A DNA stretch of 64,000 bases from positions 2,706,425-2,770,424 of the forward strand of contig NZ_CP050265.1 of the NCBI RefSeq assembly GCF_011765465.1, given 5' to 3'. Each line of letters opens with the position of its first letter. The first letter of the stretch is position 1. Position numbers and translations under genes: made by a program. Below the pieces are notes generated by a model that had not been told where the DNA came from, did not search any database, and was given only the letters and a program-made list of their open reading frames with translations. The DNA is from Erythrobacter sp. (lineage in GTDB: Bacteria; Pseudomonadota; Alphaproteobacteria; Sphingomonadales; Sphingomonadaceae). This document shows, one piece after another, positions 22,833-25,069 of this stretch.

Positions 22833-22865
22833 CGATCACAAACCTGTCACAAACAGTCTTCATTG
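22833..22865 (+). promoter_or_regulatory. PhoB-box-like 11-bp repeats
   Basis: Three consecutive 11-bp units are seen: CGATCACAAAC, CTGTCACAAAC, AGTCTTCATTG. The middle unit matches the Pho-box half site CTGTCAY plus A-rich spacer, and the 11-bp period is that of PhoB binding. It is 130 bp upstream of the metallophosphoesterase start. Binding is inferred, not shown. Confidence 0.5.
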
Positions 22866-22994
22866 CGCGTTTTGCGACTGAAACACAGTCGTCATGGACT
22901 TGTGGATTTACGCAAAACCGTAATCGAGCTGTGAATCGCACGTAACAAAGCACTGCCAAGGCAAGGGGGAGGAGACGAAAGCCGGGGAATACCA

Positions 22995-23939
22995 ATGACC
23001 GACTTCATGCTGTCCGACCTGCCCGAAACCGTGTCCGATGCGATGGGCCCCTTCGCCAATGTCGCGAACCTGCCGCTGGCAGGGCCGAAGACCCCCGAGC
23101 CCGAGGGCCGCGAGCGGCGCAAATACCGCACGATCTGGATCAGCGACGTCCATCTCGGCACCAAGGGGTGCAATGCCGAAATGCTGATCGACTTCCTCGA
23201 CAGCGTGGACAGCGACACCATGTATCTCGTCGGCGACATCATCGACGGCTGGCGCCTAAAGAAGAAGTTCTACTGGCCCGCTGCGCACAACGACATCGTC
23301 TGGCGTCTTCTGAAGCGCGCCAAGAGGGGCACGCGGATCGTCTACATTCCCGGCAACCACGACGAGATGTTCCGCCAGTTCACCGGATTGAATTTCGGCG
23401 GGATCGAGATCCGCCGTGCCGCCTTCCACGACACCGCCGACGGGCGGCGGCTGATGGTGCTGCACGGCGACGAATTCGACGCGGTGATGCTCTCGCACCG
23501 CTGGCTCGCCTTCGTCGGGGACTGGGCGTATACCACTGTCATGAAGCTCAATGTCGCGGTGAACGGCATTCGCAAGGCTCTCGGCAAGCCTTACTGGTCG
23601 CTGTCCAAGGCGGCGAAGCACAAGGTCAAGAACGCGGTCGAATTCATCGGCAAGTACGAAGAGGTCGTCGCGAAGGCCGCCGGCGAGCGCGGGGTCGACG
23701 GGGTCGTGTGCGGCCACATCCACACCGCCGAATTCCGCACCTTCCAGCACAATGGCCGCGACGTCGAATACTGGAACGACGGCGACTGGGTCGAAGGCTG
23801 CAACGCGCTGGTCGAGCACGAAGACGGACGCATGGAAATCCTCCACTGGCCCGAGGAGATCAGGCGGCGCGAAGCGAGCGAGGCTGCTGCGGTCGAGGGC
23901 GCACGGAACGTGCCCGATCCGGCGAAGGAAGCGGCGTGA
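22995..23939 (+). CDS. metallophosphoesterase, PlcP/LpxH-like
   Basis: A 314-residue calcineurin-type phosphoesterase. Metal motifs: SDVHLG near residue 52, GDIIDG near 79, GNHDE near 121, HGDEFD near 157 and GHIHTA near 240. A Trp-rich loop (WRLKKKFYWPAAHND) is also present. Automatic annotation would call it UDP-2,3-diacylglucosamine diphosphatase. The VKNAVEFIGKYE and GDWVEGCNALVEH blocks fit the PlcP group, which in alphaproteobacteria removes the phospho-headgroup from phospholipids to give diacylglycerol under phosphate starvation. The coupled glycosyltransferase (GTGA overlap) and the Pho-box-like repeat support that reading. An N-terminal extension of about 45 residues lacks homology. 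Confidence 0.82.
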   Translation: MTDFMLSDLPETVSDAMGPFANVANLPLAGPKTPEPEGRERRKYRTIWISDVHLGTKGCNAEMLIDFLDSVDSDTMYLVGDIIDGWRLKKKFYWPAAHNDIVWRLLKRAKRGTRIVYIPGNHDEMFRQFTGLNFGGIEIRRAAFHDTADGRRLMVLHGDEFDAVMLSHRWLAFVGDWAYTTVMKLNVAVNGIRKALGKPYWSLSKAAKHKVKNAVEFIGKYEEVVAKAAGERGVDGVVCGHIHTAEFRTFQHNGRDVEYWNDGDWVEGCNALVEHEDGRMEILHWPEEIRRREASEAAAVEGARNVPDPAKEAA

Positions 23940-25069
23940 ACCAGCTTGCCCGCGTCGAGCCCGGCACCGGGGCGGATGTCGCGCGGGGGCGGGCCCGGTC
24001 GCCGCGCTCTGTCGCGCCCCGTTGCATCGCCATCGTCACCGATGCGTGGCATCCGCAAACCAATGGCGTGGTGCGCACGCTTTCGACCACCTGCGACCTG
24101 TTGCGCGCCTGGGGGCACGAGGTCACGGTGATCTCGCCCGAGCAATATCCCTCCTTCCCCGCGCCGACCTATCCCGAAATCCGGCTTGCGTTGACCGCGC
24201 CCGGCTCGGTCGGACGCCAGCTCGCGAAGATCGCGCCCGAGGCGGTCCATATCGCCACCGAAGGCCCGCTCGGCTTCGCCGCGCGGCGCTATTGCCTCAA
24301 TCGGAAAGTGCCGTTCACGACCGCCTATCACACCCAGTTTCCCGACTATATCGCGCGCCGCACCGGCCTGCCGGCGAGCGCCTTCTGGCCCTATATCCGC
24401 TGGTTCCACCGCCCGGCGCAGCGGATCATGGTCGCAACCGAGACGATCCGCACGCAATTGCGTGAGCAAGGCCTCACCCACCTCACTCACTGGAGCCGGG
24501 GGGTCGATCTCGCCTGCTTCTCCCCCGATGCCCCGCCGCCGCCGGAATATGCCGGGCTCGAAGGACCGATCCTGCTCTATGTCGGGCGCGTCGCGGTCGA
24601 GAAGAACATCGAGGCCTTCCTCGCCTGCGACTATCCCGGGACCAAGGTGGTGGTCGGAGACGGCCCGGCGCGCGCCGCTCTGGAGGCGAAATTTCCCGAG
24701 GCGCGCTTCCTCGGCAAGCGCACCGGACGCGAGCTGGCGGGCTGCTATGCCGGGGCGGACGTGTTCGTATTTCCGAGCCGGACCGACACTTTCGGCCTGG
24801 TGATGATCGAGGCGCTCGCCTGCGGCACGCCGGTCGCGGCCTATCCCGTGCCCGGCCCGCTCGATATCCTCACAGACGCGGTCGGCGCGATGGGCGAAGA
24901 CCTCGCCCGCGCGATCGACGCGGCGCGCTATTGCGACCGGGCCGAATGCGCCGCCCATGGCGCAAGCTTCAGCTGGGAAGCGGCGACGCGCCAGTTCCTG
25001 TCCGGGCTGGTCGCGCTCGAGGAAGAGGAATGCGTCTCGCTCACCTCTGCGCCCGTGCTCGAATTCTGA
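23936..25069 (+). CDS. GT4 glycosyltransferase (Agt/MgtA-like)
   Basis: A 377-residue retaining glycosyltransferase of the GT4 family. The N-terminal acceptor domain begins IAIVTDAWHPQTNGVVRTL, as in MgtA/SqdX-like lipid glycosyltransferases. The C-terminal nucleotide-sugar domain has LYVGRVAVEKN and the E-x7-E region PSRTDTFGLVMIEALACGTP. The start is a GTG at 23936 that overlaps the stop of the phosphoesterase (GTGA), so translation is coupled. It probably glycosylates diacylglycerol released by its partner to make phosphorus-free glycolipids. The sugar is unknown (glucose, mannose or glucuronate). Confidence 0.85.
   Translation: MNQLARVEPGTGADVARGRARSPRSVAPRCIAIVTDAWHPQTNGVVRTLSTTCDLLRAWGHEVTVISPEQYPSFPAPTYPEIRLALTAPGSVGRQLAKIAPEAVHIATEGPLGFAARRYCLNRKVPFTTAYHTQFPDYIARRTGLPASAFWPYIRWFHRPAQRIMVATETIRTQLREQGLTHLTHWSRGVDLACFSPDAPPPPEYAGLEGPILLYVGRVAVEKNIEAFLACDYPGTKVVVGDGPARAALEAKFPEARFLGKRTGRELAGCYAGADVFVFPSRTDTFGLVMIEALACGTPVAAYPVPGPLDILTDAVGAMGEDLARAIDAARYCDRAECAAHGASFSWEAATRQFLSGLVALEEEECVSLTSAPVLEF

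Follow-up and report, generated by a model that had tools for sequence, protein, structure and literature searches.

A putative plcP-agt lipid-remodelling operon of Erythrobacter with a conserved three-unit array as its candidate PhoB operator

Two overlapping genes in a 64-kb stretch of an Erythrobacter sp. genome (the window, by which we mean the whole stretch analysed) encode a calcineurin-type phosphoesterase and a GT4 glycosyltransferase. They raise the question of whether the first gene belongs to lipid A synthesis, as its usual database name implies, or whether the pair replaces membrane phospholipids with phosphorus-free glycolipids when phosphate is low and, if so, from which upstream site it would be controlled. 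The original prediction for this locus favoured glycolipids, and that reading is supported by the analysis described here. The source genome (G000) is a single contig (C1) of 3.30 Mb and is 99.98% complete. Both genes are real, and they are of the two families predicted (PF00149 at 42 bits for the phosphoesterase, PF13439 at 81 bits for the glycosyltransferase), with a 4-bp overlap, GTGA, between them. We consider it very probable that they form a plcP-agt lipid-remodelling operon under the control of PhoB.

In the scheme that we infer from relatives, which supply the two enzyme activities, the sugars, PhoB binding and the response to phosphate, phosphorylated PhoB would bind an array of 11-bp repeats just upstream of the genes at low phosphate and switch on both of them. 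PlcP would cleave membrane phospholipids into diacylglycerol and a phospho-headgroup, thereby freeing phosphorus, and Agt would transfer glucose and/or glucuronic acid from uridine diphosphate (UDP) sugars onto the diacylglycerol. Monoglucosyldiacylglycerol (MGDG) and/or glucuronic acid diacylglycerol (GADG) made in this way would take the place of the lost phospholipid.

The phosphoesterase groups with PlcP proteins and not with LpxH. In a tree of 17 rows, a comparison that the original prediction had proposed, ten PlcP rows including that of the window are split from six LpxH rows by a branch with 100/99 support. These group labels are our own assignments, and a row from Thioclava that was left ungrouped lands on the PlcP side. 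Four rows, none of them that of the window, stand on long branches, and the tree program warns of long branches joining between the LpxH group and Thioclava; the branch of the window is short. Six paralogues from the same genome and three loci of the class (L151, L160 and L163, with wrong reading frames) were left out. The window protein is 78.5% identical to PlcP of Erythrobacter sp. NAP1, 51.6% to the Pseudomonas aeruginosa homologue and 49.6% to the Sinorhizobium meliloti homologue, as opposed to 22.6% for Escherichia coli LpxH, and its nearest named relatives are from Erythrobacter and its neighbours. The metal-site motifs that we take to mark calcineurin-type metallophosphoesterases (SDVHLG, GDIIDG, GNHDE, LHGDEFD and GHIHTA) can all be found at their places in the alignment. 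At the positions of GNHDE and GHIHTA in the window, the four LpxH proteins of the alignment read GNRD and GHTHRP, and they possess a WIGDD segment that the window protein is missing. By these comparisons the phosphoesterase is a PlcP, as had been proposed.

The glycosyltransferase likewise carries the expected features. For the enzyme GTcp, the motifs GRVAxEKN and FPSxTDTFG, a His104-Asp256 dyad and the donor-site residues Gly16, Gly82, Gly85, Arg190, Lys195, Thr257, Phe258, Gly259 and Glu264 have been reported (PMC8231724; this and the other papers are cited for the parts of their text that were available). The window protein has GRVAVEKN and FPSRTDTFG. Ten of these eleven catalytic and donor-site residues, all but Gly16, are in register in the window protein and likewise in 78 of 80 relatives (loci L039 to L118; L092 and L117, the latter at a contig end, fail), under a pattern whose spacing is fixed within three blocks and loose between them. 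FPSxTDTFG is present in 78 of the 80 as well, being absent from L095 and L117. The P. aeruginosa homologue fails the ten-residue pattern, and the difference visible in the alignment is TDTYG. A search of PDB sequences yielded distant matches only, mostly GT4-like enzymes. Judged by its motifs and residues, the glycosyltransferase is Agt-like, in agreement with the original prediction. Moreover, the two genes travel together: a GRxxxEKN motif lies 3′ of plcP in 79 of the 80 relatives, the exception being L117, and 26 of 32 wider homologues likewise have one 3′ of the gene, on its strand.

Upstream of plcP, the relatives share a site that in the window reads AAACCGTAATCGAGCTGTGAATCGCACGTAACA and lies 48 bp 5′ of the ATG at 22995. 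To describe it we trained a model of width 33 on the upstream regions of 79 relatives, with the window excluded and with L093, which has no recognised core, omitted, and kept the best of 60 random starts. The consensus, GAACCGTCACCGAACTGTGAATCGCCTGTAACA, is composed of the units CYGTCAC, CTGTGAR and CTGTAAC, exactly 11 bp apart. The window array scores 37.5 bits at 22915-22947, and the next best place in the 64 kb on either strand scores 0.4 bits. Scanned on both strands, the loci of the relatives (1,646,726 positions) have 75 places above 15 bits, exactly one per locus in 75 of the 80; no such place was found in the loci L086, L093, L101, L111 and L113. This count includes the sequences on which the model was trained, and the window alone is independent of the model. 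A search of the source genome with the array pattern at up to three mismatches returned this one site, and the backward control none.

The upstream regions were also scored against the printed Pho consensus, CTGTCATNNNNCTGTCAT (PMC8528852), with C or T allowed at each seventh position (CTGTCAY-N4-CTGTCAY). A match of 11 or more was found on the coding strand in 59 of the 80 sequences scored (the window and 79 relatives) and on the opposite strand in eight; shuffles that keep dinucleotides only approximately give an expectation of 3.4. Of the wider homologues, 32 of 33 loci could be scored upstream, L152 being without a core; eight of them reach at least 12 on the coding strand and one on the other, against 0.1 expected from exact shuffles. 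The array is the most likely candidate for the PhoB operator of the operon.

It is our choice to replace, as main candidate operator, the Pho-box-like repeat of three 11-bp units that had been proposed 130 bp before the gene. That repeat does exist at the predicted distance and spacing (CGATCACAAACCTGTCACAAACAGTCTTCATTG, 22833-22865), but only its first two units, CGATCACAAAC CTGTCACAAAC, match the consensus well, at 12 of 14 positions; the third, AGTCTTCATTG (AGTCTTC), agrees at one of seven positions, counted by eye, which leaves two good units. When the 184-bp intergenic stretch was shuffled 5,000 times with its dinucleotides kept exactly, 8 of the shuffles reached 12 on the coding strand; in the window, the repeat is the one site on either strand to score 12 or more. 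The repeat is more than chance but is not a conserved control element: the array model gives −47 bits at its exact start, and neither model nor alignment makes it the site conserved in relatives. We have set it aside as main operator, and an extra PhoB site at 22833-22854 is possible.

The form of a Pho box in this organism can be judged from the rest of the genome. Searching with CTGTCACNNNNCTGTCAC at up to three mismatches did not discriminate, with 135 sites and 134 in the backward control, and a stricter pattern, CYGTCAYNNNNCTGTCAY, resolved the matter. Its sole perfect match, CCGTCACGGGTCTGTCAC at C1:2477321-2477338 on the minus strand, is located about 20-50 bp 5′ of the first PstS-type gene, depending on the start codon chosen. 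Because the only perfect match precedes pstS, this finding supports CTGTCAC at 11-bp spacing as the probable Pho box of the organism. At up to one mismatch the pattern occurs at five places, against one in the backward control, and among these only the pstS site is tied to a phosphate gene; of the other four (304880, 819505, 972581 and 1297389), the first two were inspected in open reading frame lists, which revealed no phosphate gene nearby.

The genome has two PstS-type genes in tandem (C1:2475196-2477164), apart from a cluster containing phoU and a PhoB-type regulator. In that cluster, Pfam matches identify phoU (PF01895) and, as neighbours on the same strand, a sensor kinase (histidine kinase), a PstA-like permease and the PhoB-type regulator. 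Frames resembling pstC and pstB were recognised by eye next to phoU, and we refer to the cluster as phoR-pst-phoU-phoB.

Several observations weigh against a PhoB-driven operon that makes these glycolipids. The units of the window array agree with the Pho consensus at five, five and four of seven positions, and the middle unit of the model, CTGTGAR, deviates from it. In the stretches that hold the phoR-pst cluster, pstS and btaA (see below) the array model reaches 4.0 bits at best, and at the pstS Pho box itself it gives about −11 bits; because it misses all of these, the array and the pstS box are tied by the 11-bp spacing and partial letters only. P. aeruginosa has the same kind of pair, and its Agt1 takes UDP-glucose only (PMC8528852), while a plcP-agt deletion in Methylosinus lost GADG and kept MGDG (PMC9239053). 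Since that Agt1 carries TDTYG and this deletion retained MGDG, the sugar used by the window Agt cannot be read from its sequence. Finally, a congener (G145, estimated 100% complete, in three contigs) has no PlcP match; the operon is thus dispensable in the genus, and was either lost or never gained in that genome.

Some of these points favour a different regulator. If another member of the OmpR/PhoB family, for example ChvI, bound the array, the operon would answer envelope stress instead of phosphate, and the off-consensus middle unit, the absence of the array pattern anywhere else in the genome and the silence of the model at the phoR-pst cluster, pstS, btaA and the pstS Pho box would all be in its favour. 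We nevertheless regard this alternative as rather unlikely. The first unit in the model from relatives is CYGTCAC, and the spacing is the 11 bp of Pho boxes. Three of the five relatives that are without the array, namely two Blastomonas and Sphingomonas ursincola (L101, L111 and L113), instead have Pho-consensus matches of 13, 12 and 12 of 14, and L086 has 11 of 14 (L093 is unscored). The published ChvI motifs, TTGC-N3-GCAA and GCC-N8-GCC (PMC9731502), do not fit the array, and ChvI itself was rejected on this ground. In addition, Erythrobacter sp. NAP1 is reported to alter these lipids with phosphate (PMC4796936).

Genome-wide searches for lipid A genes bear on both enzymes. Neither LpxC (PF03331) nor LpxB (PF02684) nor LpxI gave a match in the genome, with LpxA, LpxD and LpxK outside this search, and the single match to the LpxH model was plcP itself (47.3 of 134 bits, 1.8e-12). 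The LpxI, LpxC, LpxB and LpxH models each matched at least one of 14 control genomes, and those of LpxC and LpxB matched E. coli and Caulobacter.

The lack of LpxC and LpxB is in line with a second alternative, in which the glycosyltransferase works on ceramide, instead of or besides diacylglycerol, and yields glycosphingolipids as do Sgt1 and Sgt2 of Caulobacter. Sphingomonas species have glycosphingolipids in place of lipopolysaccharide, and it was among GT4 genes whose expression rises on phosphate starvation that Sgt1 and Sgt2 were chosen (PMC6445935). The window protein, however, has the motif set of Agt/GTcp enzymes, a clade whose substrate is diacylglycerol (Sgt1 and Sgt2 were considered by description, not by sequence), and its gene overlaps plcP, whose product would supply diacylglycerol. 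We judge a ceramide substrate to be distinctly improbable.

Least credible is the reading of the phosphoesterase as an LpxH-type UDP-2,3-diacylglucosamine hydrolase, a lipid A role that we reject as very unlikely: it is the sole LpxH-model match in a genome that lacks LpxI, and three LpxH sequences (E about 7e-7) make up all of its PDB sequence matches at E ≤0.001, but it scores far under the curated cut-offs (46.9 against 134 bits for NF003743; 38.2 against 190.35 bits for TIGR01854), falls on the opposite side of the tree, does not have the LpxH signature residues and, with LpxC and LpxB missing, would have no lipid A route to serve. The original prediction had held that clustering with LpxH, in a genome with no other LpxH or LpxI, would speak against PlcP. 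The genome indeed contains no LpxI and no other LpxH, but the protein clusters with PlcP and LpxC and LpxB are absent.

The misannotation that had been foreseen is real. The public name UDP-2,3-diacylglucosamine diphosphatase is given to 24 among the 30 plasmid homologues listed, of 32 found. Our results support the view that this gene, of a kind usually annotated as belonging to lipid A synthesis, encodes an enzyme of phospholipid recycling, in a genome that lacks those lipid A marker genes for which we searched. The distinction is relevant to annotation and to forecasts of how these bacteria manage in water poor in phosphate.

The array provides a concrete site for testing and is a small addition to an established system. 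We found no paper describing a three-unit array of this kind in Sphingomonadales, in a literature search with most subscription papers outside its reach. A more speculative proposal, to which we give little credence, is that in Sphingomonadales such as this one, without the searched lipid A genes, plcP-agt is driven by an array of its own, which has three 11-bp units, the middle one off consensus, and is unlike the simple Pho box of pstS. The operon might in this way respond at a different phosphate threshold or to a second regulator, and its sugar lipids might also replace surface glycolipids.

Table 1. Features of the plcP-agt locus, in window coordinates
Feature	Position	Strand	Basis
Pho-box-like direct repeat of two 11-bp units, CGATCACAAAC CTGTCACAAAC; perhaps an additional PhoB site, distinct from the conserved one	22833..22854	+	12/14 to CTGTCAY-N4-CTGTCAY; best overlapping place −0.2 bits in the array model
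Weak further 11-bp-phased stretch, CTGAAACACAG TCGTCATGGAC TTGTGGATTTA	22878..22910	+	Aligned with comparable stretches of NAP1 (L064) and L047; alignment of ten upstream regions, by eye
Conserved array of three 11-bp units (CCGTAAT.. CTGTGAA.. ACGTAAC), candidate PhoB operator	22915..22947	+	37.5 bits (model trained without the window); >15 bits in 75/80 relatives; pattern unique in the genome
plcP, PlcP-type metallophosphoesterase, 314 aa; putative phospholipase C giving diacylglycerol	22995..23939	+	PF00149; on the PlcP and not the LpxH side of the tree; ATG region common to relatives (alignment)
agt, GT4 glycosyltransferase, 377 aa; putative UDP-sugar:diacylglycerol glycosyltransferase	23936..25069	+	PF13439/PF13692/PF00534; Agt motifs and ten residues in register; GTGA overlap with plcP

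The pair is preceded, across the 184-bp intergenic stretch, by a gene for a quinone oxidoreductase of the PIG3 family and followed by a convergent gene without a match in Pfam or NCBIfam. Elsewhere in the genome, neighbours were examined for the listed CTGTCACNNNNCTGTCAC sites with one or two mismatches outside the window (one each at six stretches), and a glycerophosphodiester phosphodiesterase gene (PF03009; L132:2664-3836) was the sole phosphate-type gene among them. The sequence CAGTCACACGGCGGTCAC at C1:3032663 lies 85 bp 5′ of this gene, which is a plausible further Pho target. A BtaA-family gene is present at C1:1291435-1292553 (PF11899, 388 bits), so the organism may in addition produce the betaine lipid diacylglyceryltrimethylhomoserine (DGTS), which fits the occurrence of this lipid in NAP1; directly upstream of btaA there is just a 10/14 Pho match.

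Matches to PlcP at E ≤0.001, some of them distant, were present in 104 of 289 genomes of the same class (even sampling, the source genome included). Three P. aeruginosa plasmids also carry a plcP-agt pair (L172:2471-4335 on pHOU1-1; H16/H75; H17/H74), and that on pHOU1-1 adjoins azoR3 and other genes resembling a chromosomal segment. A plasmid record from Parabacteroides distasonis (L178:292-1323) contains a PlcP-like gene whose product is 42.9% identical to that of the window; annotated as an LpxH-type enzyme, it shares 4 bp with a glycosyltransferase gene. The pairing of plcP with a glycosyltransferase gene may thus reach Bacteroidota.

Comparison with known systems places the locus among close counterparts. 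The gene of CP090106.1 (L169), which we take to be the orthologue of the published S. meliloti PlcP, lies on the same side of the tree at the identity given above, but no Agt motif is found downstream of it, the next listed gene being a major facilitator superfamily transporter. The PlcP-Agt1 pair of P. aeruginosa (PA3219-PA3218, compared through the plasmid homologues, L172) is overlapping as well, with 48.8% identity for Agt and a 12/14 Pho match upstream; it differs by TDTYG for TDTFG and by about 37 fewer N-terminal residues. With the Agt/GTcp enzymes of Agrobacterium and Pelagibacter HTCC7211, the window protein shares GRVAxEKN, FPSxTDTFG, the His-Asp dyad and the donor-site residues in register, a likeness that rests on the residues described in PMC8231724, not on the two enzyme sequences.

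The closest counterpart is that of Erythrobacter sp. NAP1, for which a plcP-agt pairing was already published. Sebastian et al. (PMC4796936) reported agt downstream of plcP in this strain, accumulation of MGDG, GADG and DGTS on phosphorus starvation, expression of plcP under phosphorus deficiency and putative Pho boxes in plcP clusters. The NAP1 locus (L064) has the same gene order and the same upstream array, at 45.6 bits; to the eye, the upstream gene ends differently in the alignment, and the 22833 repeat is not aligned there. The window locus is thus orthologous to a system already described for this genus, and is known and ordinary.

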